Positions 5,922 through 64,000 of a DNA stretch of 64,000 nt are shown piece by piece. Positions within the stretch are counted from its first letter, which is position 1. Each line of letters begins with the position of its first letter. The notes under the pieces are model-generated. The model searched no databases and was not told the origin of the DNA. It saw only the letters and a list, made by a program, of their open reading frames with translations. This DNA is from Bolinopsis microptera (Eukaryota > Ctenophora > Tentaculata > Lobata > Bolinopsidae), in the NCBI RefSeq assembly GCF_026151205.1, contig NC_087075.1:13777628-13841627 (forward strand), in the 5' to 3' direction. The translations under genes were made by a program, and so were the position numbers.

Positions 5922-6422
5922 TCAAATCTCGAAATCTTCTTCAGTTTCGCATTTTATTATTTCAGGATAACAGCCCTTCATTGAACACACAGCAGTTCCG
6001 GTTGATGAGCACCTACACTTATTACAGTCCCTCCAGAACGTGTCTCCAGCGTAGTACCTCACCCCGTTATGCATACAGACCGCTACGTCATCATCGCCAC
6101 TACTACACTCCTTCTCCGTGCATATAACCACCCCATCTTTCGTGCATCTACACTTGTTGCAGTCCATTCTGAATGTGTCTCCAGCGTAGTAAGTAACATC
6201 ATTGTGTCTACAGACCGCTACAGTCTCACCATCACCACCACAGGCCCGCTCAGTGCACATCACTTCCCCCTTCTTAGTACATCTACATTTGTTACATTCA
6301 TCCTTGAACATGTCCCCTGCACGGTATGTTTCTCCGTTGTGTTCACACGTTTTTGTCCTTTTTCTTGCGGAGTCCACTGACATTAAAACCAATGCTAGTA
6401 AAAGAAGTGTTGCTGTCTTCAT
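5922..6422 (-). CDS. Secreted three-module cysteine-rich protein (pacifastin/VWC-like), single coding exon
   Basis: 166 aa. The signal peptide is MKTATLLLLALVLMSVDSA, followed by a basic RKRTK linker and three six-cysteine modules (roughly residues 26-61, 71-106 and 116-151), each with C...Y-x-A-G-D-x-F-x-x-(D/E)-C-N-K-C-R-C...C...C. An acidic tail (CETEEDFEI) follows. The putative P1 positions after the fifth cysteine are Glu (C-T-E-R-A-C), Glu (C-T-E-K-E-C) and Met (C-S-M-K-G-C). The start at 6422 is chosen because it gives a clean signal peptide and aligns with the start of its inverted sister gene at 7414. Conserved DNA upstream (TCTCACCGTAGCG) could be a 5'UTR splice acceptor. An extracellular protease inhibitor or matrix-binding role is inferred. 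Confidence 0.88.
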   Translation of the reverse strand: MKTATLLLLALVLMSVDSARKRTKTCEHNGETYRAGDMFKDECNKCRCTKKGEVMCTERACGGDGETVAVCRHNDVTYYAGDTFRMDCNKCRCTKDGVVICTEKECSSGDDDVAVCMHNGVRYYAGDTFWRDCNKCRCSSTGTAVCSMKGCYPEIIKCETEEDFEI

Positions 6423-7413
6423 CTTGATTACGTCGCGCTACGGTGAGAAAGAATGCAATAAATATCAGCGGTTAGTAAGTACAAAATGGTCGAAATTCGA
6501 ATATTGTGAAAAATGACGCATGCTCATATTGTCTTAAAATAAGTATATGATGTTACAATGTAATCCGACGTCGCTACTGTAAGAAGGAATGTAAAAGGAC
6601 TGCGATAAAACATACACAAACAAATTACTGAATTGAGGAATTGAATTTCCAACAGAGGGATCCCCCGCGGGGTTGGGAATTGGGATGGCCTGAGGTGCTT
6701 ATCTCACTTTGGTAACCTAAGCCACTCCGTGCCAAGGTATTCATCTTAATATAATACTAGTATACTAGTATGAGGTTAGTCCTATGAACCAAAGGAGTGT
6801 TATCACCAGCCAAAGCTGTACCAATTCACAGCTTGGTGACTGCAGGCCGATTTGTATCAGACCGAATTTCAACCCGGGACCTTTAGCATGGGAGGTGATC
6901 TTAGCACTACTGTAGAAACTAAAAACATCGTAGTACCGTCGAAATTCTTAAACATATGTACATTAACCATCAGCTAAATATGTATGCCGCGGTCTAAATA
7001 CAAGATGGTAAGACGAAACCTTAACGATACGTTTTATATCCCGATTACATTAGGTAATATGATTCCTTTGTTAGAAAATTCAATTCCTGAATTGTGTAAG
7101 CATTTAATTCTTCCATTTAACTCGCTCATTCCTTTTGTGTGTGTTTCGGTAAAAGTTCTACTTGTTAATTACAGTATTGTTGGCAAACTTGGCATTAAAT
7201 TGTTTATTTAGCAGCAGCAAAAAATTACACTACATTGTATCCTTAACCATTACATCGTAACATCATGTACTTACTTTAAGACATGAGCATGCGTAATTTT
7301 TCACAATACTCGAATTTCGACCATTTTGTACTCAGTAACCGCTTATATTTGGTTGTTATTCCAATTTAGTGAGTCTTTATTTTATTTTTTCTCACAGTAG
7401 CGACGTAATCAAG
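6423..7413. other. Spacer of the inverted gene duplication, with tRNA-derived SINE-like insert
   Basis: Both sides of the spacer (about 6423-6660 and 7070-7413) are inverted copies of each other, so the duplication includes the promoter regions of both genes. The middle, about 6655-6915, looks like a SINE. On the minus strand it has a tRNA-like block with CCCATGCTAAAGG and a B-box-like GGGTTGAAATTC near 6860-6900. The open frame 6984-7211 is considered chance. Confidence 0.6.
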
Positions 7414-7869
7414 ATGAAGACAGCAATACTCCTCCTACTAGCATTGGTTTTAATGTCAGTGGTCTCTGCAAGAAAAAGAAAAAAAACGTGTGAACACAAC
7501 GGAGAAACATACCGTGCAGGGGACATGTTCAAGGATGAATGTAACAAATGTAGATGCACTAAGAAGGGGGAAGTGATGTGCACTGAGAGGGCCTGTGGTG
7601 GTGATGGTGAGACTGTAGCGGTCTGTAGACACAATGATGTTACTTACTACGCTGGAGACACATTCAGAATGGACTGCAACAAGTGTAGGTGCACTAAAGA
7701 TGGGGTTGTTACGTGCACGAAGAAGACGTGTAGTAGTGGTGATGATGTGGCGGTTTGTCGGCATAATGGGATTGTTTACTACGTTGGGGACTCGTTCAGG
7801 ATGGACTGTAACATGTGTAGGTGCACATCAACTGGCACTGCTGTTTGTACAATGAAGGGGTGTATGTAG
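7414..7869 (+). CDS. Secreted three-module cysteine-rich protein (pacifastin/VWC-like), inverted paralogue
   Basis: 151 aa from the ATG at 7414. The frame is open 15 codons further upstream, but starting at 7414 gives the signal peptide MKTAILLLLALVLMSVVSA and matches the paralogue at 6422. There are three six-cysteine modules. Module 1 matches the paralogue's module 1 throughout. Module 2 differs from it at only three residues, all in the loop around the fifth and sixth cysteines (C-T-K-K-T-C here against C-T-E-K-E-C). Module 3 ends C-T-M-K-G-C and the protein stops two residues later, without the acidic tail of its sister. The gene is divergently oriented to 5922-6422. TTTTTCTCACAG|TAGCG just upstream resembles a 5'UTR acceptor. 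Confidence 0.88.
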   Translation: MKTAILLLLALVLMSVVSARKRKKTCEHNGETYRAGDMFKDECNKCRCTKKGEVMCTERACGGDGETVAVCRHNDVTYYAGDTFRMDCNKCRCTKDGVVTCTKKTCSSGDDVAVCRHNGIVYYVGDSFRMDCNMCRCTSTGTAVCTMKGCM

Positions 7870-47000: not shown

Positions 47001-50000
47001 CTTTAAGAGTTTCTGTACTGCAAGCTTTCAAAACTGTTGAACATCCGCATTCAGGTTGATTGTATATGCGAACATCAGAAGACACTCCAAACGCGTCCCC
47101 CTTAAATCTTGAAAGACGAGATTTTGTTGATAAAGTGCTTCTTCCTCCATTGAGCGTGAGTGTCTCAAAAGACCGGAAGGATAGTGTTCCATATTTATCT
47201 GTTGATATCGTTTCTCCATCATCACAATCATCAACTCCAGGTTCTACCTCATAAGCTAAGTCGTCCTCGTCCTCGAGGCATCCAGCTTCATCATCTACAG
47301 CTTCCCAAGAAAGTTCTTGGCCATGGACGATTGGCTTCCCACTCCGTTCTTCAGGATCTGCGACTGCGGCGAACACAGGGAAATTGTTTCTTTTCCCTTC
47401 TCGAATGCAGTCCCTCGATGCCCTGTCCAGCGTTTTTGCCAACTTGCCTAGGCTTATCATACCACCAGTCCATTTTACTCGTTCTGCTTTCTGGCCTGTA
47501 GATTTAACCTTTTTGAGGTGAACTGTAGGATGCAAAACTGTACTTCCACGTGCATGTGCAATTGCAGATGTGTCTTCATGTAATGATAAAGCACTGTACA
47601 CATTCTTTCTCTCCATTCCATGGGCCATAGTTATCGCATCCATATATCTTGAGCGACCAGATGAAAAAGAAACCCGAATAAATGCAAACAGCTGCTCATT
47701 CTGATCACTTCCAAGGTAATAAGTGACGATTTCAGCATTAGGGAATTGCTTCTTCAGCAGAGTTAAATACAAAACAAGACCGTCACAAGTACATATAATA
47801 TCAAGGTACGTCTGATTTCTACTTCTCTTTCAAAGTAACGAAAAATGTTTTTTCTCAAACAGTTCCATCTTTATTATACTTTATAGTTTAGAGTCTAATT
47901 TGGCATGATATCAGATCATGTGATATTACATGGCCCCATGGAGAGCATTGCCAGAGCAATTGGCCAGAGAGCTCCATAGAAGTAAGGGGCCTACTCTAGC
48001 CAACAGCTCTAATACATTTCCTTCCTCAACTTCATTTTCTTCATCTAACTGCTGCTGCTGCTCAGCAACTACTTGACAGCTGGCACAGTGACAATTGTCT
48101 GCGTAGTGTATCTGTTAGCCTCAATTTTGCCTCAAGGAGGGAAGGTAGCCTCAATCCAACCTCACATAAGTTTCGATAAAGTCTCAATAACCTTCGAGCT
48201 ACAATTACAAGTTTTATAGTGGGTCTATAACATGTTTCCGTACATTAAAGTTAAAACTTAAAATGCGGCTGAATCATTTATTAGCCTCATTTTGGCCTCC
48301 TACAAGAAGACTCTGCGATTTCTGAAATGTTGAGCTTGAAGAGGATGAATAAATTTTTATTGTTGACACATTAGATAGTCACAATACCGAACATGCTCGA
48401 AAATATATACAAAAGTATACTTGTTAGCCTCATTTCACCCTCTCACAAGGTGGTTAGCCTCATTTTCACCTCGAAAATTTGAAGCTTAAATACCGATTAA
48501 ATATAATCCCAAGGAATTTCATGTGCAACATGGATATCAAGTAACGTGTGAGCTGTTAACTTGTTTCCGTACATTAAAGTTAAAATGCGGTTGAATTATT
48601 TATTAGCCTCATTTTGGCCTCCTACAAGTAGACTCGGCGATTTCTGAAATGTTGAGTTTGAAGAGGATGAATCAATCTTTATTGTTGACATATTAGATAG
48701 TCACAATACCGAACCAACTCGAAAATATACACAAAAGTATACTAGTTAGCCTCATTTCACCCTCTCAAAAGGTGGTTAGCCTCATTTTCACCTCGAATAT
48801 TTAAAGCTTAGATCTCGATCAAGTATAATCACTATGGATTATACTTGCAACTTGGATATCATGGACGTAACATGAGAAAGTTCTTTTTTGAAAGTGGTGA
48901 GGCTAATTTGTTAGCCTCAATTAGTCAATTGTCCCTCGCAGTTAAATCACTCCTACTGAGTCTAGTGAGTGAGCTAGGAGGTCGCCGAACATCTCATTTT
49001 AAAGCCGTATCGATTTTCTATGCGCATACCAAAAATCAAATGCGTAACTAAAACAGAAATGAAATTACAGAAGATTTAAATTTTTTGTCAAAAAACGAAC
49101 TTTTAGGGGTGTTTCTAATGACCAGGGTCAGTACAATAAATAGAGATAAAGGTGGACAGTACTAGTGGGGTGCAGACTATTCGTTATTAAATTCTCAGTT
49201 CAAAGTTTTAAAATTTCATATTTCGAATGGCATAGAATGGAGAAGAATGGCATAAAAATCATCAAATGGCATAGAAATTTCATGGCATAAATGGAAATTT
49301 TGTTTGGCCAATTCTCCATTATGCCATTTATGCCATTGGTACCCCCCCCCCCCCTACTTAATGAAAATTACTTTACTAAAAGTTTACTAATTAACGCTAA
49401 TTGTACATTAATTAATCTAATTGTAGTATACCTGTCATGAAGTCCGAGGTAACGAAGGGCCGAAGAACTATCGAGTGCTTTGTCGAGGGGTCATGACGAC
49501 TTGCTCTGACGGTAAACAGTATATAATTATCTGTAATTAGTTAATTACTTGAGCTGATTAGTAATAAGGTAGTTATTTTAGTTTAAAATTAATTAGTTTA
49601 TTAAGTTAGTTTATTAATTATTAGATTAATTAAGTGAATTAATCAATTAGTTATGCGGTTTGCTCTTAAATTGTCGCAACTGAGATTAGAAGAAGACGAA
49701 CAATAGGTAAGCGAGATGTTCTGAACCTAAAAATAAATTATGTTAATAATGTTATCGTTGAATGGTTATTGGTTATAGTCACGTGGTTATAGTCAGAGAG
49801 ATATTTACCGGTCAAAGTGGAGAGGAAGGAGCACTACTGGCATCTGACTGACCAGTTTCAGAGCGTCGTGCTGTCTCAACATGTCCATAGCGGCACTGTC
49901 TGCTTCCTGAGTGATCAGTGATCACGTGACATTAGTTCCACTTCAATTTCATCATTAACATAATTTGTGACGTCACAATACATTTTTAATATTATATGAC

Positions 50001-53000
50001 GTCACGAGGGACTATGATGACGTCACTTACCCTGAGTCTAGAGATAGCACCGGGGTTAAGGAGTGTTGGTGTTATGTCACGTACTGGTCCCTCAATCTTG
50101 TCACCGAACACGAAACAGCATCTGGACAGTGTGGAGGTTAGATGATCGGCCAACAATTATAACATTACCCCCCCCCCCCCTCCCCCTGATTTTTCCGATT
50201 TTTCCGACCTCACAAAATGTACAAAATTATAATAATAATATAATGATTGAATAATATAATCTTTAGATATATAAATAATAAATATTATTTAGACTATAAA
50301 ATAACCTGTTAACATTAGGACAGAGCATTGTGACTAGCTTCGTGAGATGACTGAGGACATCCCACTTAACTTGAGCTCCTGTTTCACAACTGAAGGCTGC
50401 AGCGTAACTGTACGTCCTCCCGTCACCCTGGACAGTGGAGAAGGTTAATTGATTAATTAATTAGTGAATTAGTTAATTAATTAACTGATTAACTGTATGT
50501 TCTCCCCAGCTGATAAGTTAGGATTTACCTGTACCCCCACAGTTCTGACGGGCAGTAACACTGGGTATATTCTAGGATTTACCTGGACCCCCACAGTTCT
50601 GACGGGCAGTAACACTGGGTATATTCTAGGATTTACCTGGACCCCCACAGTTCTGACGGGCAGTAACACTGGGTATATTCTAGGATTTACCTGGACCCCC
50701 ACAGTTCTGACGGGCAGTAACACTGGGTATATTCTAGGATTTACCTGGACCCCCACAGTTCTGACGGGCAGTAACACTGGGTATATTCTAGGATTTACCT
50801 GTACCCCCACAGTTCTGACGGGCAGTAACACTGGGTATATTCTAGGATTTACCTGTACCCCCACAGTTCTGACGGGCAGTAACACTGGGTATATTCTAGG
50901 ATTTACCTGGACCCCCACAGTTCTGACGGGCAGTAACACTGGGTATATTCTAGGATTTACCTGGACCCCCACAGTTCTGACGGGCAGTAACACTGGGTAT
51001 ATTCTAGGATTTACCTGGACCCCCACAGTTCTGACGGGCAGTAACACTGGGTATATTCTAGGATTTACCTGTACCCCCACAGTTCTGACGGGCAGTAACA
51101 CTGGGTATATTCTAGGATTTACCTGGACCCCCACAGTTCTGACGGGCAGTAACACTGGGTATATTCTAGGATTTACCTGGACCCCCACAGTTCTGACGGG
51201 CAGTAACACTGGGTATATTCTAGGATTTACCTGGACCCCCACAGTTCTGACGGGCAGTAACACTGGGTATATTCTAGGATTTACCTGGACCCCCACAGTT
51301 CTGACGGGCAGTAACACTGGGTATATTCTAGGATTTACCTGGACCCCCACAGTTCTGACGGGCAGTAACACTGGGTATATTCTAGGATTTACCTGTACCC
51401 CCACAGTTCTGACGGGCAGTAACACTGGGTATATTCTAGGATTTACCTGTACCCCCACAGTTCTGACGGGCAGTAACACTGGGTATATTCTAGGATTTAC
51501 CTGGACCCCCACAGTTCTGACGGGCAGTAACACTGGGTATATTCTAGGATTTACCTGTACCCCCACAGTTCTGACGGGCAGTAACACTGGGTATATTCTA
51601 GGATTTACCTGGACCCCCACAGTCCTGACGGGCAGTAACACTGGGTATATTCTAGAATTTACCTGTACCCCCACAGTTCTGACGGGCAGTAACACTGGGT
51701 ATATTCTAGGATGGTCCTTTAAACTGATCAGGAATTCCCTCTTAGCGTCCGTCAGCTGGGCCTCTAAGCTATTTAACATCTGAGATTGCTGAGGAGAGAA
51801 AAAGGTGTTTCTGTTATTAATTGGTTAATAAAAAAGAGAGAAAATTTGTCATACCTATATTTGTAAAAGCAAAAGTATGCCTTGTTTGAATCTTCCCCCA
51901 TAAAATAACTATAATATTTATTTTAAATGGAAGTTCATTAAATGACTATCCTTCATGAAAACAGAAAACAGAAAACAAAAACAAAAACAAAAAACAGAAA
52001 ACAGAAACAGAAAACAGAAAACAGAAAACAGAAAACAGAAACCAACAGTGGTTCGAAGTCGATGATAGGAGCAGATAAGGTTGAGACGGTTGTTAAAGTC
52101 GTTATAATTCTCCAAATACCAAGGGTAAAGGTCCAACTGACATATTATCCTGGGACCCAAACCTGGACCTGACAAGTTTTTAATAGTTAATATAGTTAAT
52201 ATAGTTAATATAGTTAATATAGTTAATATAGTTAATATAGTTAATATAGTTAATATAGTTAATATAGTTAATATAGTTAATATAGTTAATATAGTTAATA
52301 TAGTTAATATAGTTAATATAATAGTTAATATAGTTAATATAGTTAATATAGTTAATATAGTTAATATATAGTTAATATAGTTAATATAGTTAATATAGTT
52401 AATATAGTTAATATAGTTAAGGGGACATACACCAAAAGCTTTTTTGCCCTGGCCCTGCTGTTAACGTCATATTAAGAAAGTATACATAAAAACAATAAGA
52501 TTTGATACATTAAAAATTATTTTTGAGGACCCGCACTTTCGAAAAAATTATTATTTTCTTTTTCGAAAATTTTGGAAATTTTGAGAAGTCTGTCACTGTA
52601 ATACCGATATTTCGGTCATCTTAAAAGTCTTTTGGCTGTTTTTGTTACTGAAGATTACTTACAATCCGTACAAGAAATCCACGAAAGGATTATATAATTG
52701 AACAATATATGACGAAGTTACAGACCAAACAAGGTCGAAAAATAAAAATTGAAATTTTTGTAAAAATCAAAGTTGTATATTTTACCATTCACCCAGGTCA
52801 TAAGATATCGCTTCAAAAATTCTTGTGAGTGTAGCTGATGATCATATACAACTTTGTGGAACAGGATTTCTCTCAATTTTGAGTTTTAAGGTATGAAATG
52901 TGGCCTCAAACGACTTAGTAAAATTCATCGTAAAAAGGGCCAAACATGGCAGATTTAAGGATTAAAATGCCTATAACTCACAAAGTATCAGTTTTTTTGA

Positions 53001-56000
53001 AATAATTGTTACAGAATCGTAATCAGCTTGAAAAGACGAATCTTTTAGTACCAATTATGTGATTTTAGAAGACAAATTGTCTTAAATAATTTTCTAGCTC
53101 GAACACAAGGGTCCCCCCTTGTATAAATTTTGTACAAATTGTACACATTTTTTTACAAATTTTGTGTCTTTAACTATTATAAATTTGGTACTAAAAGATT
53201 CGTCTTACCAAGCTGATTACGATCCTGTAAAAATTATTTCAAAAAAACTGATACTTTTTGAGTTATAAGCATTTTAAGACTTAAATCTGCCATGTTTGGC
53301 CCTTTTTACGATGAATTTTACTAAGTCGTTTGAGGCCACATTTCATACCTTAAAACTCAAAATTGAGAGAAATCCTGTTCCACAAAGTTGTATATGATCA
53401 TCAGCTACACTCACAAGAATTTTTGAAGCGATATCTTATGACCTGGGTGAATGGTAAAATATACAACTTTGATTTTTACAAAAATTTCAATTTTGCTTCT
53501 CTCGACCTTGTTTGGCCTGTAACTTCGCCATCTATATTTTCATTATAAAATCCTTTGAAGGGCTTCTTGTACGGATTGTAAATAATGTTCAGTTAAAAAA
53601 TCAGTCAATAAACGTTTAAAATGACCGAAATATCGGTATTACAGTGACAGACTTCTCAAAATTTCCAAAAATTTCGAAAAAGAAAATATTTATTTTTTCG
53701 AAAGTGCGGGTCCTCAAAAATAATTTTTAATGTATCAAATCTTATTGTTCTTATGTATACTTTCTTAATATGACGTTAACAGCAGGGCCAGGGCATAAAA
53801 GCTTTTGGTGTATGTCCCCTTAATATAGTTAATATAGTTAATATAGTTAATATAGTTAATATAGTTAATATAGTTAATATAGTTAATATAGTTAATATAG
53901 TTAATATAGTTAATATATAGTTAATATAGTTAATATAGTTAATATAGTTAATATAGTTAATATAGTTAATATAGTTAATATAGTTAATGTAGTTAATATT
54001 TGTTAAGTTGGTAAACTAAATAGGCTGTTGAAAGTATAGTTGGTTTGATAGATGTTTGGTATATATAATACTGAATGATTATTATTCGTTCCAAAAATTA
54101 CCACATCGGGCCCATCAGATTGGTTATACCATGTACTTAAAAAGATCGATATAATAAGAATTTCGCCGCAGTTAAACCACGCACGATCAATTTTCCCTAC
54201 GATGTACTTGTATACCTTTAATTCTTTTGAGTGAAAAGTGTTACTGGAAAAAAGTGCAACATATTTACATAATATGTTATTTATAAATGAGTGGGATTCG
54301 TGCATGGTAAAAATTGACGATTTATTTGACCAATGTAAGAATGTAGCGCCGCGCATCAACAATAAATGAATCCAGAAGATTGCGGAAAATAACTTTGCGA
54401 AGGAGGAATTTCACTGTAATTAATTAACACATGGCTAGCGTCGCGCGCAGCATAACAGACGCTTCCTATACACATAATGATAGTATAGGGGAGTGGTCTA
54501 TATTGCGAAGGAGCAGACTTTTGTCATCAACGCAGGTCCATCGGGCCACCTCATATATCCAAACCCGAATACTTATTCCCAACGATCTTTTTGCCTTCGG
54601 CAAGAGTAGGGAAAAAAATTCATTACAACACTTGTCTAATACATTACCTGGGAAAGGGTGTCTGTTAACTAGTTCAGCTGGAAGGCTCAATTCTCTCCCT
54701 AGTTCCCTAACCTCATCCTTATAAAATGTTCTCAGAGGCTCTATTATTTTCCCCTGAAAGATGTACTTAATTAAACAAAACAAAGCTGTTTTCCATAAAT
54801 TATCCCCAAATAGGAAGAAAAATCCTTGAAATTAATAATATAGCACATGTTACTAATATTAGTAATAATAAATATTTTTATAAATTCTTTAGGTCGCGAA
54901 CAATACCTTACCGCATTCCTGAACTCCCTAGCAAGAGGACTGTCATTGTGATGAGTTTTAATGGTGTCAGCCATGGAAGAGGATAGTTTAGACCCGGACT
55001 CTATAAGATCAGGAGCTAAGGTTCCTTGAGCCAGAACAAACTTGTCTTTGTCAAGATCGTTTAGCAACTCCGACATTATCTAGGGTTTTAATTATGAATT
55101 AGTTAAATAATCAAAAGCAATCCAAGGTTATTGTTTTGTCTGATTGAACTTTGAAGTCGATGAATACTTGCCAGTTGCCAAACAGTGAGCCATTTGCTTC
55201 AAGAATAAAATTAAACATCATTGTAAAAAGAAGCGAATAAGGGAAATAACGACAATATAAATTTAATATAAGATCAAACATACAAGATAATTAATGTAAC
55301 AAACTGATCATACCTGCATAAAGACATCTCCAATGATCCTCCTCTTCTGCTCAGGATCCACCACAGTGTTCAAACACTCACTCAGCTGAGCGTTCTTACA
55401 TCCCTCCAGGTGCACCCACGTCTTACCGTTTAGGAACCTATACGCGCAATCAACACCTGAAATAGGAAGGATTTAGGAACCTGTACGCGCAATAACACCT
55501 GAAATAGGGGGGATTTAGGAACCTGTACGCGCAATCAACACCTAAAATAGGGGGGATTTAGGAACCTGTACGCGCAATCAACACCTAAAATAGGGAGGAT
55601 TTAAGAACCTGAACGTAAAATAGTTATAAAAGAGTCCTAAGAAGCTTGTAGCCCAGGACCCTATCCTTAACTCTGATCCCAACCCTAATCATAACTCTAA
55701 TCCCATACCAAAACCTTCACTCTAACTCTACTGAGGCTCTGGGAAGCAAGGTCAAAAGGAAATCGCGGCACGTGCGGAATCGCGTGAGTTAAAGGAAATA
55801 ACCCTCATGAGTTATTTCCTTTAACTCAGAGGGTAAAGGAAATAATTTTTCCCATTCTCTACGACAAATTTGTTAAGTGAGATTTGGAACAATGGGAACA
55901 TTGATCAATTGTTAAGACAGTTGACAATTAATCTATATTATAACTTTATAGCATACCTTTGCGAACACAATATGGACAAAAACTCATGAGGGTAAAGGAA

Positions 56001-56644
56001 ATAATTCTACGAACATAGTTTATATACATACATTATTATTTGATTGTTTCACACTTTTCACATTTCATAATTTTATTACTAGGTGGAGATGATGTTATTG
56101 AGACTTTGGGCGGCCAAAAAACTCCTGTTCTGAAAGTTGTCCTTTGTACTTGTTTCACTGACCCACGCTTTTTAGCATTTATACATTTCGGCCCATTTTA
56201 TATGTTTGTTCGAATTGCTGTACATTTGTATACTTGCTATTTTGTAAAAGTTTCAAATCAAATCAAATCAATAGTGAAAAACTTATACAAAGGATGCCAT
56301 AATGCTGGCAACAGTAACCACCTCTGCATCTGAGTCGTACACACAAACCAACTAGCAAGTCATAATTACATTTACCCTACAAACCAGTCCACCCCTAATT
56401 CATAATTCTATTCGTGCAAAAACATTATCTTTCGCTGCGATTTTTTGAGATTTTGGCCTAAATAATCGCGGTTTTCTTTTGTCCTTGCTGGGAAGCAATG
56501 TTCCGAGGCAGGAAAATGGGTACCACCAGCAGACTCACGTTTTACATCAAGACCGAGGGCCTTCAGCGCTTTGACCACCAGAGTGCTTTCATTCTTACGC
56601 ATCAGCCCATTGTCAATGTGTATAGCTAGGACACGTCCAGCACC
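44007..56644 (-). CDS. GMPS: GMP synthase (glutamine-hydrolysing), C-terminal two-thirds, multi-exon
   Basis: GMP synthase converts XMP to GMP using ATP and glutamine. Exons recognised (5' to 3'): 56539-56644, 55314-55456, 54912-55079, 54648-54753, 51663-51788, 50306-50427, 50031-50121, 49809-49906, 49432-49505, 44325-44391, 44007-44079. Diagnostic peptides are [113 protein letters not shown] and the terminal KPPGTTEWE. The N-terminal glutaminase domain and the SGGVDS P-loop exon are not found before 56644; they may lie beyond the divergent glycosyltransferase gene. An exon for the G-L-A-I-R-V segment, expected between 51788 and 54648, was also not found. That intron is occupied by repeats, so the gene may be disrupted or misassembled. 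Confidence 0.93.
44080..44324. other. Last GMPS intron, purine-rich
   Basis: A GA-rich tract (44115-44200, GGAAAGGAGGGGGAAAGGAG-like) fills much of this short intron. On the transcribed strand it is a polypyrimidine stretch upstream of the last acceptor. Confidence 0.6.
44801..45217 (-). CDS. Small secreted cysteine-rich protein nested in a GMPS intron
   Basis: A single-exon frame of 138 aa from the Met at 45217, giving the signal peptide [17 protein letters not shown]. The frame is open 11 codons further to a Met at 45250. The mature part has about eight cysteines, including C-P-V-C near its start and C-Y-Y-S-S-E-T-C near the end, with a Pro-rich middle. I recognise no family. The gene lies within the 5-kb penultimate GMPS intron on the same strand, so it would need its own promoter. 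Composition (GC higher than the flanks) and a plausible signal peptide argue that it is real. Confidence 0.6.
   Translation of the reverse strand: MFCLLSLFLSVATAIEPVPVTNSPVIVATSTVCPVCRDYSALIIKYTSSYPRITLPFPPTIIRSCVRTLGSPYNTPCSDGKVCKIFNAWRWTEVDHVTYEDEDVTQIGCYYSSETCETEFAGFQCSAFLYSSLLKNDG
45251..46440. other. Intronic DNA (GMPS), no feature supported
   Basis: AT-rich, non-coding. The remark about a GCACCGCCCAGT-like motif at about 45845, shared with 40345-40365, is the only repeat link seen. Confidence 0.4.
46840..47815 (-). CDS. Transposase-like C-terminal fragment of the 2.9-kb element
   Basis: A frame of ~325 codons, open from a probable acceptor (ATCAG|ACGTACC at ~47815) to the stop. Its start carries [14 protein letters not shown], which resembles the S-Q-D-x-x-E-x-x-F-x-x-I-R motif found near the C-terminus of several cut-and-paste transposases, including P-like ones. 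An acidic stretch ([12 protein letters not shown]) and a Cys-rich C-terminus (PECGC...C...C-P-M-K-Y-Y-C) follow. No initiator ATG exists in this exon, so upstream exons are needed. I could not find a catalytic DDE core, which may be lost. Assignment is by context (inside inverted repeats) and one motif. Confidence 0.5.
48234..48845. repeat. 329-bp tandem duplication inside the transposon
   Basis: Two copies begin GTTTCCGTACATTAAAGTTA at 48234 and 48563. Both carry several TTAGCCTCATTTT(GG/CA)CCTC motifs at matching positions. Similar AGCCTCAATTTTGCCTC motifs extend from 48116 and to 48925, so the GCCTCA unit itself is a short interspersed repeat. Confidence 0.85.
50523..51710 (-). repeat. 54-bp minisatellite of 22 copies spanning a GMPS 5' splice site
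   Basis: Each unit equals the end of the GMPS exon plus its donor. On the minus strand it codes [18 protein letters not shown] (18 aa), and every copy holds CAG|GTAAAT. Donors occur at exactly 54-bp intervals from 51663 down to 50529, which gives 22. No stop interrupts the frame. Copies are almost identical, the main variant being GTC or GTA before CAG (both Val). The first copy is continuous with genuine GMPS exon sequence ([20 protein letters not shown]). The long plus-strand frame is a mirror artefact. Confidence 0.95.
51950..52050. repeat. AAAACAG-type short repeat in GMPS intron
   Basis: About 14 units of AAAACAG/AAAACA/GAAACAG. The minus strand is a TTTTCTGTTT polypyrimidine run. Confidence 0.85.
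52180..52420. repeat. 9-bp minisatellite (TAGTTAATA), left part
   Basis: About 26 copies of TAGTTAATA interrupted once by a 3-4 bp slip. It continues as the same array after the palindromic element (53820-53998), so the element inserted into it. Confidence 0.95.
52421..53819. mobile_element. 1.4-kb long-palindrome (foldback) element with TTAA target duplication
   Basis: Two arms of about 645 bp (52421-53065, ~53175-53819), highly similar and inverted, flank a ~110-bp core. Ends are GGGGACATACACCAAAAGC and its complement. TTAA lies on both sides (52417-52420, 53820-53823). TTAA is the target of piggyBac- and Kolobok-type transposases. The element is non-coding. If transcribed within the GMPS pre-mRNA it would form a near-perfect dsRNA hairpin. 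Confidence 0.88.
53820..54000. repeat. 9-bp minisatellite (TAGTTAATA), right part
   Basis: About 19 further copies of the same unit as 52180-52420, ending in one TAGTTAATG variant and TTTGTTAAG. Confidence 0.95.
55440..55612 (-). repeat. 43-bp repeat carrying a GMPS 3' splice site and exon start (~4 copies)
   Basis: On the minus strand each unit reads CCTATTTTAG|GTGTTGATTG + CGCGTACAGGTTCCTAAATC. This is the acceptor and the first ~25 bp of the GMPS exon whose genuine copy ends at 55456. Extra copies lie upstream of the authentic acceptor in the intron, each with its own TTTTAG|GT. Two copies read TTTCAG, the others TTTTAG. Confidence 0.85.
55613..56538. other. GMPS intron with CCCTAA-like decay and short repeats
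   Basis: Degenerate CCCTAATC/AACTCTAATCC runs lie at 55670-55735. A GAGGGTAAAGGAAATAA motif is repeated near 55840 and 55988. The frame at 56040-56333 is probably not real. Confidence 0.45.
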
Positions 56645-56986
56645 TGTAATTGTTAGTGTCATTTGTATAATAATTATAGTTATTACTATTATAATAATAG
56701 TGTGGAACCCTCACGCAGTTAACGTTTGTACTATAATAGTATAACATGCTGTAATGTTAATGTGTGCAATGTATGGTAAAGTATTGAATATTGGTGCTCT
56801 GCAAATAAGCGAAACACGAAAACAGACATCTTTTAATGTTGTGCAGTTTCATTTGTTTGACTAGATATATGCTATAATCTTCTTTAAATTGAACTTAAAT
56901 TATTGAACTTGAATCGGACTCAAATTGAATTTGAATTAAACTAAAATCTTTAAATTAAAAGGATCATAGGTACTTATTTCAGCGAC
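56645..56986. promoter_or_regulatory. Short divergent interval between GMPS exons and the GT31 gene
   Basis: About 340 bp separate the most 5' GMPS exon found from the GT31 start codon. It holds no GMPS exon. TTATTTCAG|CGACATG just before the GT31 ATG suggests a 5'UTR intron end at 56981. Confidence 0.35.
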
Positions 56987-58793
56987 ATGGTATCAATAAA
57001 CTTGACAAGATGGGACATAGTTGGAATACTACTGCTAACTACAAATATATGTCTACTCTACAGTTATCAACCTGTTTCAATCATCACACCCGAGTTAATG
57101 AAACCGAACTCTAATTTAACTACAGCCGATATTTTAGCGGTTAACAGAACCCGTGAAAAATATTTCATTGTGTTCTTAATACCGTCACACCCGCAACGTT
57201 TTAACGTGAGGGATGCTATTCGTCGAACATGGATGAACGTTAATAGATGGAATAACTTAACCTCGATCGATGAACAATACAAGAGAATCAAGGTAATGTT
57301 CTTGTTCGGCTCCTACGCTGATAGCGGTGATTTTGACCAGGAGTTTTACGACGAGCTTAAAGAACACGACGATATGTACATGATATCCAATCTTAGAGAA
57401 CACAGGACCGCTCTAAAATACAAGGTACCTTAGTAGAGGAAATCAAGAGAGCAGGATACCTTAATTCCCAAAAATTTGGGCGACAAAAAATTTGAGCGGG
57501 CCTCTCGCCCAAATTTTTTGCAGACCAAATTTATAGCATAAATCTTTTCCGTCTGCTAAATTTGTTGCTAACCAAACTTTAGGCATTTGGCCCTGAAATT
57601 GTAGGTTTACAACCTACCAGGACGCGCGCCGAGTATATGGAACAGATATTTTAGTTTTACGAGTATCACCCGTTAACCCTGAAATCTATAGAAAGATGGC
57701 TTTTTTCATATCCAAGTGAAATAATATTTAAAATTTTAGTTTTCTAATCTGTCATTAATGGCTTGACCAATTAAATGTTAAAAAGGATTGAAAGCAAAAT
57801 GACTGGAATAATAAGGAATAATAATGAACTAAGGGCAAGGCAAATATTTAACTGAAATTTTAGTGGAAAATCGTTCATTTTTCGGTCGCCCAAATGAGTT
57901 CAAATTTTCTGCCCAAATTTTTCGGGCTCAAATAAATTGTGCTCAATATAATGGCACACAAATTTTTGGGAACTAAGGTATTAAGAAACCCCTTCTCGCA
58001 GTTTCTTAATTTTATGCCCTCTCTTAATTACGGTCACGGGTATGGTTTGGGTTTCCTAATTTTATGCTTACTAATTTTATGCATACTAATTATTTGATTT
58101 ATTAATAATTTGTACCAAGGTACTCTGGGGCACCAAGCAGGCGCTCCACCACTACGACTTTGACTACATCGTCAAAACGGACGACGACATCGTCGTCAAC
58201 CTGCCCGTCCTGATCACAGACCTGATAGCTCTACCACGTGACCGCTACTACACCGGCAACTGTAACATGAAGTACGGAGACTTCAATGGTTACCCTAAAT
58301 GGAAGTACTGCTCCGGAGGAGGATACGTGTTTTCACGTGATGTGGCCAGCAAGTTTCAGGAGTTACCTAGCTCTGTTCACCAGGTACCTTTCAGACCTAC
58401 TGCATTTCGACTTTCCCGTACAGTATTTAAACTATAATTGTTGAAAGTTTCATGACTGAAGATCTACCAGAATGGTTTCATGCGAAGTTCAATAGAATAA
58501 GCTAATTCTTAATGGTGCTGAATATCAAACTTTTTTTACCCAGCTGTGTTCACCAGGTACCCTTCAGACCGGAGGACGCGTACACGGGGTATCTGGTAAA
58601 CAGACTGAGGGTGCTGCTGGGGTACAAGGTCCAAATTGTGCCTAATCCGAAACTTAAAGTTTATGGTTATAAGTGTGGGCCTTTTGTGGGTTGGTTTTAC
58701 CATTCTTATAGCACGGTTAAGAAACACGAGGTACTGTACAAGAAGATAAGGTCAGATGTGTGGGTGCCCTGCAGTGAGCCCAATGGTAAATGA
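56987..58793 (+). CDS. Beta-1,3-galactosyltransferase-like enzyme (GT31), 3 exons, 312 aa
   Basis: Exons: 56987-57424, 58120-58383, 58557-58793, all phase 0. A type II Golgi enzyme is indicated: a short cytosolic N-terminus, a signal anchor (WDIVGILLLTTNICLLYSY), a stem with N-glycosylation sites, then family motifs in order: F-N-V-R-D-A-I-R-R-T-W, VMFLFGS, K-T-D-D-D-I-V-V-N (the metal-binding DxD), Y-C-S-G-G-G-Y-V-F-S and E-D-A-Y-T-G-Y. It would transfer galactose or GlcNAc in beta-1,3 linkage to glycoconjugates. Length is normal for the family. Both introns show signs of recent origin (see findings). Intron 2 must be spliced at the second CACCAG|GT (58556), because the nearer CCCAG at 58543 gives the wrong frame. 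Confidence 0.9.
57457..57980. mobile_element. ~525-bp MITE, TACCTTA family, in GT31 intron 1
   Basis: TACCTTAATTCCCAAAAATT and its complement AATTTTTGGGAACTAAGGTA are the ends, with TA as target. Nested within is a copy of the GACGCGCGCCGAG dispersed repeat (57603-57678, hairpin TAGGTTTACAACCTACCA, end ACGAGTATCACCCGTTAA). Confidence 0.75.
58398..58541 (+). pseudogene. GPCR gene fragment (TM6-TM7 region) forming GT31 intron 2
   Basis: The 144 bp match 61591-61732 of the downstream GPCR from TACTGCATTTC to GCTGAATATCA..AACTTTT with about 10-12 differences, including a lost TGTC. It is flanked by a 29-bp direct repeat of GT31 coding sequence (58369-58397 and 58542-58570, two mismatches). Confidence 0.9.
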
Positions 58794-58915
58794 TGGTCAC
58801 CAGCGTTTCAAGTGTAGATTCAATAATTATAAATTTATAGTTCGTCATCAGATTTTATTGCCATGTTATGGTACATGTGATTGTGAATATGATTGTGTAC
58901 GATTTTTAAAACGTT

Positions 58916-59770
58916 CTTAGGAGGAGTATGAGGAGGAGAAGTAGGAGGAGGAGTAGGAGGAGAAGTAGGAGGAAGAGTAGGAGGAGAAGTAGGAGGAGGA
59001 GTAGGAGGAGAAGTAGTAGGAGGAGTAGGAGGAGGAGTAGGATGAGAAGTAGGAGGAGTAGGAGAAGTAGGAGGAGGAGTAGGAGGAGGAGTAGGAGGAG
59101 GAGTAGGAGGAGGAGTAGGAGAAGTAGGAGGAGGAGTAGGAGGAGAAGTAGGAGGAGGAGTAGGAGGAGAAGTAGGAGGAGTAGGAGGAGGAGTAGGAGG
59201 AGGAGAAGTAGGAGGAGGAGTAGGAGTAGGACTAGGAGGAGAAGAAGGAGGAGTAGGAGGAGGAGGAGAAGAAGGAAGAGTATGAGGAGGAGTAGGAGTA
59301 GGACTAGGACTAGGAAGAGAAAGAGGGGAAGGGGAAGGGGAAAGGGGAGCTCGAGGAGGAAGGAGGGGTAGGAGGGGAGGAGGGGAGAGGAGGAGTAGGA
59401 TGAGAAGTAGGAGGAGGAGTAGGAGGAGAAGTAGGAGGAGAAGTAGGAGGAGGAGTAGGAGGAGAAGTAGGAGGAGGAGTAGGAGTAGGACTAGGAGGCG
59501 AAGGAGGGGAAGGGGAAGGGGAAAGGGGAGCTCGAGGAGGAAGGAGGGGTAGGAGGGGAGAGGAGGAGTAGGAGGAGAAGTAGGAGGAGAAGTAGGAGGA
59601 GAAGTAGGAGGAGGAGTAGGAGGAGAAGTAGGAGGAGTAGGAGTAGGACTAGGAGGCGAAGGAGGGGAAGGGGAAGGGGAAAGGGGAGCTGGAGGAGGAA
59701 GGAGGGGTAGGAGGAGGAGGAGCTGGAGGATGCTGGAGGGGAGAGGAGAGGGAAGGAAAACTAAAGTTAA
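58916..59770 (+). repeat. Polypurine GGAGGAGTA minisatellite with higher-order repeats
   Basis: About 850 bp of almost uninterrupted purine on the plus strand, built from GGAGGAGTA/GGAGAAGTA units. A higher-order block with GGGGAAGGGGAAGGGGAAAG then GGGAGCTCGAGGAGGAAGG recurs three times (~59325, ~59510, ~59665). The Arg/Ser-rich frame 58928-59371 is a consequence of the repeat. Triplex or G-quadruplex structures are possible. Confidence 0.93.
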
Positions 59771-60384
59771 GGTGGAGGGGTTACTATACGACGTACGCGT
59801 TTTTATGATTTAAAACTGTCGCACAAATACTATTTCGTCCATTCCTAGCTGCACAGCTCTCATTAAATCTGTAGATGGAGACTATTTTACGTTTTCTCTC
59901 GCGAACAATATCCTCTTCCGTCCACAAATGAGCTATTATTAAAGTAGGTCGCACATCTGGTGTCCTTGTAACCAATACGTGAGTGGATTGTGAGTTATGC
60001 AGATCAACTGATTATAAAACGTCGCATATTACCACTTGCACTCATTGCATTACTAATTCTTCTAAAACAAAGAACTCAAAAATGTAAAATACGCGACAAT
60101 ATCTTCCTTGAGCTGAAAAAGAAGATACAGCGTTTCGTACGTGTCCTCAGCCCGTCCTTAGACACATTTAGCACTTTTTACCGCATTTTAGCACATTTTG
60201 ACATTTTAGCACGTTGCACCTGGTGAACATTTCATTCTTTTCTGTCTGACAATCACTGCTAGTTAGTACCTTGTGGTGCATAAAATATTGACCGCTGTAT
60301 CTGACAATTCAGTAGTTCATAATTGGCTTATCTTTACAATTGTGGTTTTACGGCAATACTGCTGATGAACAACTTGTCCCTCTC
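59771..60384. other. Intergenic DNA upstream of the second GPCR
   Basis: No supported gene. The frames at 59784-59975 (minus) and 59990-60226 (plus) show no family features. Confidence 0.4.
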
Positions 60385-61824
60385 ATGACCATTTCAAGTA
60401 ACTATTCGGATATCAGATTCGGGATAGAGAGCAATGCAGAAAGATATTCCTGGGCTGCCTATTTGGTTTTTTGTCAAGTCTAATTGGAGATACTCTGATC
60501 CTGTTTGCATCCTTCCAGAAGGACGCCTTGTAGAGCATATAATTTCATTTCTTAATTTTAATTCTAATATTTTATGTTTTATTCCCGGACGGCTTCAAAT
60601 AAACTCATACTAATTTCACAAAGCATTGCCTACAAGTTTCAACACTTCAAGTTCACACCTATTAGTAATACCTCCCTTACGAATTCATTCTCAGAAACCT
60701 TAAGACTAAGTACCTACCTTCACCTTTCACCGTCCTAACACTATCTTAACATCAGCCAATCACAATTGAGAAACACGACTCACATGACACTACTTTCACC
60801 TCCATAGCCGTCCGTGGCTACGATTGTAAAATAAGTCTGTCTGACCCGTTTTGAGAGATACGAATGAACTTGTGTTTAGTTCCCATATTCTAAAAAACCT
60901 TTGCTGACTTTACCTTTCAAGAAGTCAAACTAATATAACGAGTATCACTTTGTATTAGACACCTAAAAAAGTACTTGAACTAGTCCTCAAGATCCCGGTA
61001 TTACACCAACCTCTACAGCCTTCAAAGTCAACAAATTCATACTGACTGTTATTCAACACATTGCAGCTTCTGATCTCATTTCGACTATCTGTACACCCTT
61101 CTCTGGGGCAGTCTCCTTGCTAGCCAACTCGTGGGTCCTTGGAAAAACACTTTGCTATGCTCGGGTATATGTCGGCAACTACGCTTACCTTGTTGGCATG
61201 TCCCTCATCGCAGTTCTCACTACAAGCAAGTTCCTTCTACTCAGATATCCTCTCCGAGCAGTAAGTTGGTCAACAAAAAGAGCTCATCAAGTTTGCAGCT
61301 TCATCTGGGCTTTCAACCTTATCTTACCAATACTTTTCTCCGCTGTAGACAAGGATGATGTTGACTTCGAGTACATAATCTACAACTGTCAATACGGGTA
61401 TAACTCTGATATTTGGAACAAAATATTGCCCTTAACTGGATTTTTTTCTGCTTTACTTCCAAACATAATTATCGTAGGAACAACAGTTCCTACACTGATA
61501 TACCCAGCTGATGCAAGGATATCTGCTAGACGTGTCCAAGGAAGTGTTCCATGGCAAGGAGCCCTCACTGTAGTCCTCACTGCTGTCATCTACTGCATTT
61601 CAACTTTCCCGTACAGCATTTATACTATAATTGTTGAAAGTTTCATGACTGAAGATCCACCAGAATGGTTTCATGAGAAGTTAAAAAGAATAAGCTATTT
61701 CTTAATGGTGCTGAATATCATGTCAAACTTTTATATCTACACTATGACGATAAAGACTTTCCGCAGATTTCTTCTCTCGAAACTATTCTCTGTCGTTCCC
61801 AGCACTGTTAGTTCTTTTGCTTAG
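60385..61824 (+). pseudogene. Second GPCR, paralogue of the 8683-9711 gene, broken or spliced
   Basis: The start (MTISSNYSDIRFGIESNAER) parallels the first GPCR. The frame is lost in TM1 at a T6 run (about 60469). Seven Ts would restore LVFLSSLIGDTLILFASFQ. The sequence then meets a TAG at about 60532 and ~450 bp of unrelated DNA. It resumes at about 61005 with FILTVIQHIAASD (TM2) and is open to 61824 through TM3 (T-S-K-F-L-L-L-R-Y-P-L-R, again no DRY), TM4, TM5, TM6 and TM7 (NIMSNFYIYTMTIKTF). Either an intron plus a 1-bp sequencing error in a homopolymer, or a decaying pseudogene. I found no clean splice pair bridging the gap. Part of its TM6-TM7 region has been copied into the GT31 gene. 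Confidence 0.75.
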
Positions 61825-64000
61825 CTTAGGTAAAATCAATACAGTTTTTTCTATTTATTATATGCAGTATTTAGTGTATTTGTTGCTATGGATAAAATTT
61901 TGAACATTTATTATGGATGGAAAGCTGATGACAAAAACTCGCGGACTCACAAAATTTCTCATAAACAGCGATTTAGCATTATATATAAATAGAATTTAAG
62001 ATATCATAAAATTCGTGAATTACTAATACTAAGAAATATGTGGGTAAATGTGGAAAATTGAAAACGATAAGTATGACCCGCTTATTAGTATGACCCGCTT
62101 ATAATTTTTACCATTTTCAGGAAAAAAGATATTTTATTACTTTAAAGGCTTTGTAAAAACTGTTTTTTTGGAACTTGAGTTTTTATTATATTAGTTATAA
62201 ATTATCAAATCGACGTAAAAATCATGAGTTTGACCCTGAAAATGGAAGAAGATTCACCGACAAAATGGCTTTTTATGTCTAACCGTGCAAGGAAAGCAGA
62301 CGCAGCATATTCTAGGGGAACCTGGAGGAAGAACAACCTCTGGAGTCAACGGAAGAGAGGATTATGATTTAGTCTATAATTCAAATGAGGCAATAAGGCC
62401 CCCCCCCCCCCGTCCATTGTCCAATCATTCTTTTCTTACACAATCATAATGACATTACACGTTCCATAAACCATAAAAATATCAGGACATGAAAAAATAT
62501 TGACATTTTTGACGAATATCCCCCACATTAAAATGTCCAGGGGTGTGACGTTATTAAGACCACAAGGAAATATTTTTAACGGGTTTTGTTAACCGCTAAA
62601 ATATCGGCTGTAGTGAAATTAGAGTTTGGTTACACTAACTCGACTGTGGTGATTGAAAAAAGGTGGATGACTGTAGAGTAGACATATAGTTGTAGTTAGC
62701 AGTAGCATTGCCACCATATCCCATCTTGTCATTCTCGATACAGTCACAGGTTCCCTGTTTCCGAGATCGCATCTCAAAGGGGAGGCCTCGACTCCAAGAC
62801 CATTATATAATAACGAGGGCCGAGGGGTAAGTGTGGACTATCGAATTTGAATCATAAATTTTTTTCATGTTTGCCAAAATTCAGGAATGTTTTGCTGACG
62901 TCAGCAAGGCTCAGACCCCCCCCCCCCCCCCCCCCCCCGTCAGTATTTTCCAACCCCCCCCCCCCACCCCTCCCCTCGGCTGCTGACGTAAAATGTGAAC
63001 GCTCCCTAAGTGCTACGTCAACGTGAATTGTTCAGTTTAAGCTATTAGCTACTTAGTTAAGAGCCATGAATAATACAATGTGTCGTTGCCTGGCAGCAAC
63101 TTGGCATGTAACAAACTACAAAAGAGAACATGTTTTCATTGTATCAAAGGTATTGTTAGTTTTTGCCGAATATTCTAAAAATACCATTAACAATATTTTA
63201 AATTCCGTAGCTTTTTACATGATCACACTTACGTCTTACAGTTGGTAGCCTTCAAACATTTCTTTTAAATTTATTATATCAAGATTTCTCTTGACAAAAT
63301 GTATTAAAGTGTGTTACTTCGACAACATTCAGAATCATTTTGTAGACAAGTTAAGGGGGGGGGGTTCACCCTGATTTTTTTGTGAAACTTAGTTTCGAGA
63401 TAGCAGTTGACCAACAAACTAGGACCGTGACCGAACTTTTGAGGGGGTCCCGGACCCCAACCGCCAAACGGTGCCTGCGGGGCAGCCACGCCCATATTTG
63501 ATATATTTGAGCCAAATTTTTTTAAAGGCCTAACTCAAAATTCCATATTAAAACTTAAGGTCGAAATGCGATTCTACGTTGATTCTGAAAATTTCATGTA
63601 AAAATATTGAAACCCTATTGAGTTCTATTGTTTTGAACGAATCAGTTTCGCAATATCGCGAACTGAGATATGGCGATTTTGTCATTTTTTGCAATTAATT
63701 GAACACAGAATCCACAGTTAGGTAGATTTGAGCTGATAATCATAGAGAATCTGTAGTATAGGCTTATCTTCCATATAAAGTTGGGTCATTCAAAAATATT
63801 GATATTTGACCAATTATGGGCCCAAAATCGATCAAATTTGGTGCGTATGCCCAAATATGGTCTTATGGTTTTTGGCTCATAACTCAGTCATTTTGTCCAA
63901 TCTTGATGAAAATTCATATACGAGTTCAAGGGACCACTAGCTACAAGTAGAGCACCTAAAATCTGGGTTTTGGGCATGTTCAGGGGTATTTGGCTAAATT
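61825..64000. other. Intergenic DNA with poly-C tracts and repeat-like AT sequence
   Basis: Poly-C runs lie at 62399-62410, 62917-62938 and 62954-62965, with poly-G at 63352-63363. A TGACGTAAAATGTGAACG end near 62983-63000 resembles the GGGGTCGTTCACATATTACGTAA-type MITE. At 63420-63500, GGGGTCCCGGACCCCAACCG is a GC-rich repeat-like patch. After 63520 the sequence resembles other AAAATTTC-rich dispersed DNA. No gene supported. Confidence 0.45.

Follow-up and report, generated by a model that had tools for sequence, protein, structure and literature searches.

The second intron of a GT31 (Galactosyl_T) gene in Bolinopsis microptera, located in the 64,000-nt stretch of DNA analysed here (the window), is probably a spliceosomal intron that was made in place by repair copying from a neighbouring GPCR-like gene and that matured afterwards. 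The evidence comes from the composition of the intron, from a second copy of the whole locus and from paralogues of the gene in the same genome.

A GT31 gene interrupted by GPCR-derived DNA

The gene is composed of three exons on the plus strand. Exon 1 (56987-57424), delimited by translation, paralogue alignment and Pfam, runs from the ATG to KYK; exon 2 (58120-58383) holds the DDD motif and ends in SSVHQ, as placed by paralogue alignment; and exon 3 (58557-58793) begins with VPFRPEDAYTG and contains a conserved ED segment. They are separated by intron 1 (57425-58119, plus strand), which resembles a TIR element with related elements elsewhere in the genome, and by the predicted intron 2 (58384-58556, plus strand), which measures 173 nt in the window (copy A) and 176 nt in an inverted duplicate of the locus (copy B). 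Both introns are in phase 0. Joined, the three exons form a 312-aa ORF, and the spliced protein belongs to GT31 by its match to the Pfam Galactosyl_T profile PF01762 (E = 4.3e-21; 76 bits against a curated cut-off of 23). The copy B protein is one codon shorter, its last codon having become a stop. When intron 2 is retained, the frame runs into a stop in the insert 17 codons after the presumed donor site, which deprives the product of the EDAYTG segment.

The insert in intron 2 is flanked by a direct repeat of GT31 coding sequence, with copies at 58363-58397 and 58536-58570 (both plus strand) that are identical at 32 of 35 nt and both contain CACCAGGTACC; in 60 mononucleotide shuffles of 58120-58793, no 35-mer repeat matched at more than 24 of 35 positions. 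This 35-bp duplication encloses, as its core, the 29-bp exon repeat reported in the preliminary description. The 5' splice site CAG|GTACCT would be provided by its 5' copy, and CACCAG|G, the 3' splice site, by the other. Splicing CACCAG|GTACCT to CACCAG|GTACCC (58384-58556) restores the 312-aa reading frame exactly, and the earlier proposal that removing one duplicate together with the fragment recovers the protein is thereby borne out.

Between the two repeats, 58397-58534 (plus strand) is a copy of 61590-61732: 130 of the 138 aligned bases agree, and the only gap is a 5-bp deletion. The donor segment sits 3.2 kb downstream in the same orientation. The 144-bp GPCR copy described previously therefore holds for the insert itself, except for some seven bases at its right end (58535-58541), which are part of the duplication or an additional T. 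Inspected by eye, the insert junctions share at most 1-2 nt of sequence, plus the extra T at the right, and the copy B insert has three additional bases (TAG) at its left junction.

The donor segment (plus strand) is 7tm_1 coding DNA according to the Pfam profile PF00001, is internal to the GPCR gene and forms part of a GPCR copy at 60382-61812. In this copy the frame changes near 60465, and 60528-61017 holds some 490 bp of additional DNA that is missing from copy B; the GPCR of copy B shifts frame near residue 110 of the paralogue L047. The GPCR copies of both duplicates are thus degenerate, and the receptor gene assumed as donor in the preliminary description is not intact today. Genome-wide, this rhodopsin-like GPCR gave at least 139 matches (138 of 650 candidates scored), nearly all of them in single long frames and several of them clustered on contig C4.

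A DNA search of the genome (264.65 Mb, 232 contigs) with the insert-bearing query 58340-58793 returned six matches. Three are copies of the gene: the window itself, the inverted duplicate, which lies on the same contig (96%), and a noisy one on contig C12 (74%). Two are GPCR copies (94%), and the sixth is a paralogue that matches over 43 exon bases. Beyond the three GT31 copies and the two GPCR copies, this search, which skips very common words and so may pass over further copies, found no other instance of the insert. We rejected a transposon as the identity of intron 2, given that the insert is not repetitive in this search, and other GPCR family members as its origin, given that they share at most 67% protein identity among the matches scored.

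Paralogues, locus copies and the order of events

A search of the genome with the spliced GT31 protein yielded 25 matches, eight of which represent exons or pieces of the window gene and copy B (L008, L009, L012, L013, L015, L016, L026 and L027). With the four weakest matches (L029-L032) excluded, we aligned 13 paralogues: L010 and L011 (as cuts L043 and L044), L014, L017-L025 and L028. All 13 are single ORFs that align without a gap at either intron junction, as illustrated for intron 2 by RVHHAPFRPEDAYTG and EVHQVPFRPEDGYVG; L025 carries two extra residues four positions before the second junction. In a tree of 15 GT31 proteins, rooted at midpoint only and with four rows, including L014, on long branches, A and B cluster together (100/100), and L043, L014 and L044 join them (98/99). 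Because none of the 13 aligned paralogues has the intron, intron 2 is best read as a gain relative to them, and its content, a duplication plus a GPCR copy, points to gain independently of the paralogues. The intron gain proposed earlier is thus supported, and an unrelated intron at this position, which would argue against it, was found in none of the 13 aligned paralogues from the same genome.

The inverted duplicate lies about 160 kb away and spans at least 13 kb, matching window positions 49913-63355 to C4:13989309-14003499. Copy B (L007, reverse complement) has the two introns as well, with the same insert, and its donor is arranged as in the window. A third copy, C (G000 C12:8544500-8552499, L041), also carries the insert and is error-ridden; it matches the locus at 73-74%, with many small insertions and homopolymer stretches, is nearest to copy B, and gives the impression of long-read sequence that went into the assembly unpolished. 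A 5-kb piece at 13.968 Mb presents three short matches to the window and nothing more, and another of 5 kb at 14.024 Mb gave zero matches to it. Elsewhere in the window are two related ORFs in opposite orientation (5925-6437, minus; 7339-7866, plus), known as ORFs alone, that would encode small cysteine-containing proteins with signal-like starts (KMKTAxLLLLALVLMSV).

Five differences within the copied segment set the inserts of both A and B apart from both donors. Furthermore, two positions, 58424 and 58493, show the outgroup base in the insert and a derived base in the donor, as judged from the three outgroup GPCRs aligning there, a fourth (L049) being only partly aligned in the comparison. 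These shared differences and outgroup bases indicate that the insertion took place before A and B separated, and by this comparison the intron 2 insert is older than their split. The intron is therefore not "newborn", as it had been called: its insert is shared by the inverted duplicate and by the third copy.

A and B diverge by 1.9% outside the CDS, and their divergence per 200-nt window ranges from 0 to 5.5% (windows with at least 100 aligned bases). This unevenness suggests that gene conversion shaped an A/B mosaic, and the near identity of exons 1 and 2 and their flank between the two copies may stem from it. A and B may have arisen by segmental duplication or may be two haplotypes that the assembly joined, inverted, into one contig; the insert predates the split either way.

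Candidate splicing signals and possible constraint on exon 3

Several features of the sequence lead us to infer that intron 2 is spliced out. Scored by pairing with U1, its 5' splice site comes first among 98 GTs, a rank that it shares with its exonic duplicate at 58557. U1 pairing was set aside as a test of intron 1, whose donor ranks only 8th of 98. The intron 2 donor site is without a G at +5. A T run precedes the 3' splice site, with 7 T in the window copy and 6 of 7 in copy B; a competing AG at 58543, located 13 nt upstream of the presumed acceptor, is nearer to the T run, and its use would shift the frame.

The only CTRAY motif of the window insert is CTAAT at 58502-58506 (plus strand), a candidate branch site 51 nt from the 3' splice site. 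The motif is present because of a T>A substitution at 58505, a change that both inserts share and that all five GPCR sequences aligning there lack. Single substitutions that create a CTRAY motif in the donor-derived part number 7 of 372 anywhere and 2 of 372 within 18-60 nt of the 3' site. Since a weaker yTnAy motif (TTAAT) was already there before the change, T>A may have improved the candidate branch site rather than created it. This argument, like that on the purine-rich tract below, is post hoc, having been made after the sequence was seen.

These signals bear on the foremost alternative, namely that the insertion broke the GT31 gene. On this reading the transcript stays unspliced, translation ends 17 codons beyond the presumed donor site, and both duplicates hold an exon 3 in decay. 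The stop-to-stop open frame through the unspliced insert does end, in SSVHQVPFRPTAFRLSRTVFKL, at 58437, and the neighbouring GPCR copies are clearly degenerate. Moreover, exon 3 is conserved no better than its surroundings, with an A/B divergence of 4.2% compared to 3.4% in intron 2 and 5.6% in the 3' flank (computed with exon borders shifted by one base), and its 3 silent and 7 replacement changes, too few for dN/dS between the duplicates to be telling, show by themselves no sign of constraint. Against this reading, exon 3 has neither a frameshift nor an internal stop in A or in B, the change of the last codon to a stop in B being the only such event. In addition, none of the 7 replacement changes falls in a column shared with the closest paralogues (P = 0.008 when two paralogues are considered, 0.004 when three), although P rises to 0.19 under a stricter rule that requires the residue in at least half of the 13 paralogues.

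Likewise, no indel separates A from B in 939 aligned CDS bases, whereas the other 5827 bases contain 26 (P0 = 0.015 by length, 0.034 by substitutions); this comparison set includes the GPCR copies, repeats and one alignment-edge gap. Exon 3 taken alone gives no significant result, with 1.06 indels expected in it by length and P0 = 0.09 by substitutions. The exact AG|GT placement, the branch-site motif and the T run also argue for a functional intron, and we consider a broken gene unlikely.

Proposed repair copying, probable transposition and known intron gains

We propose that intron 2 arose when a break or a stalled fork occurred within the GT31 coding sequence. Repair would have copied about 143 bp from the GPCR-like gene 3.2 kb downstream, in the same orientation, and synthesis would then have restarted 35 bp upstream of the point that it had left, placing the exon segment CACCAGGTACC on both sides of the filler. 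As the duplicated segment holds an AG|GT, its 5' copy would have given the donor site and its 3' copy the acceptor, with splicing restoring the frame. After the insertion, the T>A change in the filler would have yielded the consensus branch site CTAAT. Of the features by which filler-DNA break repair is recognised, direct repeats at the junctions, a source elsewhere in the genome and an empty site in the paralogues are present, and removal of the insert by splicing is predicted from the indirect evidence above. Microhomology-mediated template switching and polymerase-theta-type repair of a staggered break would fit the arrangement alike; templated insertions are described as marks of alternative end joining in animals in the available text of PMC7407515.

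Between recipient and donor lies a purine-rich tract of about 850 bp (58919-59766), within which fall all stretches of at least 100 nt and at least 90% purine or pyrimidine in the 64-kb window. Purine-rich tracts can stall replication forks, which makes this tract a plausible trigger of the intron 2 event. The tract is a GA-rich minisatellite; its counterpart in copy B is more fragmented and extends across about 2 kb. Just past the GPCR, an inverted fragment of GT31 exon 1 (62504-62731, minus strand; 230 bp, 85%), present in copy B too, is a further scar of local copying.

A much weaker contender is a LINE-mediated origin, in which GPCR RNA was retrotransposed in part and left a long target-site duplication. 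It would account for the direct duplication flanking the insert, and an RNA route is formally possible for a donor that is a coding segment. However, poly(A) is absent at the 3' end of the insert, the donor, with the same orientation, is just 3.2 kb off, the fragment comes from the interior of the GPCR gene, and the DNA search, which skips very common words, found no further copies in the genome. A duplication of 35 bp is also long for LINE-type target-site events. Weaker still, and hardly credible, is an old intron kept here, lost from all paralogues and then overwritten with GPCR DNA: the single-ORF structure of every aligned paralogue is what retrocopies would show, but the 35-bp duplication spans both splice junctions, intron 2 is essentially only the duplication plus the GPCR copy, and the gene nests within intronless paralogues (midpoint root only).

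Intron 1 appears to have a different origin from the repair copying proposed for intron 2. In context it reads (G)TA-CCTTAGTA...TACCAAGG-TA(C), and inspection places the ends of the element within 3 nt of the splice sites, so that terminal inverted repeats and intron ends coincide, as in transposon-derived introns. The two ends match in inverted orientation at 7 of 8 bases, and copy B, in which intron 1 measures 173 nt, has one change at the left end. It thus seems to be a TIR element with a TA target duplication inserted into AAGGTACTC, its right end giving the acceptor AG. Partial relatives were found at C2:11496929 (88%), C1:24172334-24172461 and C2:21423654, two of the three being recovered by further search, and the C1 relative reads TA-CCTTGGTACA...CTGTACTAAGG-TA. 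A 522-bp MITE (57457-57978) is nested in the intron in the window copy, and its site is empty in copies B and C; it therefore entered after intron 1 itself. The intron 1 query gave at least 130 repeat-family matches (40 of 1019 candidates scored).

The elements behind Introners and other transposon-derived introns, as presented in the accessible part of PMC9860276, are similar to intron 1 in being TIR-like, in carrying splice sites at or near their ends and in length-neutral splicing. Introners occur as one element in the introns of many genes; the intron 1 element has relatives at three places beyond the GT31 copies, and with so few recognised relatives a proliferating Introner family is unsupported. 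Intron 2 differs from Introners in not being repetitive, and its sequence was not seen at many gene positions in the genome-wide search.

The filler-DNA introns ascribed to break repair (PMC3443670; Drosophila, PMC3296678) share with intron 2 a foreign insert, direct repeats at the junctions and a restored frame. In contrast, the donor of intron 2 is a neighbouring nuclear gene and its repeat extends over 35 bp; the known fillers, in the portions of PMC3443670, PMC3296678 and PMC4202315 available, are mitochondrial, ribosomal or uncertain matches to other organisms, with no adjacent gene named among them, and most of the introns have no source. As in the ATP2A1, fission yeast and potato cases recounted in PMC4974935, both splice sites of intron 2 come from a duplicated exonic AG|GT, but unlike in those cases the intron body is a third sequence, taken from another gene. 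Intron 2 would thus be a break-repair filler intron that combines the AG|GT logic of a tandem duplication with a body from a neighbouring gene.

The origin of new introns is an old question, and the sources of most gained introns remain unfound. In the extracts available of the respective papers, Yenerall and Zhou listed five unambiguous break-repair gains to 2012 (PMC3443670); a study of 90 new introns in Daphnia gave potential sources for four inserted segments, next to one earlier mitochondrial source (PMC4202315); a source was found for none of 168 gained introns in Caenorhabditis (PMC9169325); and PMC4974935 counts one sourced intron out of 21 in an early Daphnia set and one out of 7 for a Drosophila pair. 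The same article cites a clear phylogeny and an identified source as the two conditions for strong evidence of intron gain; judged from its sequence, intron 2 has an identified source, and its phylogeny is that of the paralogues. In the open-access literature, as far as its text was available, we found no earlier report of an intron copied from an adjacent gene.

Taken together, donor, scar, empty-site paralogues and relative timing coincide at one locus, which makes the break-repair model directly testable. More tentatively, we consider it possible, if rather doubtful as a whole, that an ancestrally intronless gene gained two introns by two routes at AGGTAC sites: intron 1 through a TIR transposon, and intron 2 through template switching into the gene next to it, across a fork-stalling purine tract, followed by acquisition of a branch site through point mutation. 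If this two-route reading is true, the assembly of a neointron, the capture of its splice sites and its maturation would be readable in order at a single locus, with the duplicate as a replicate.
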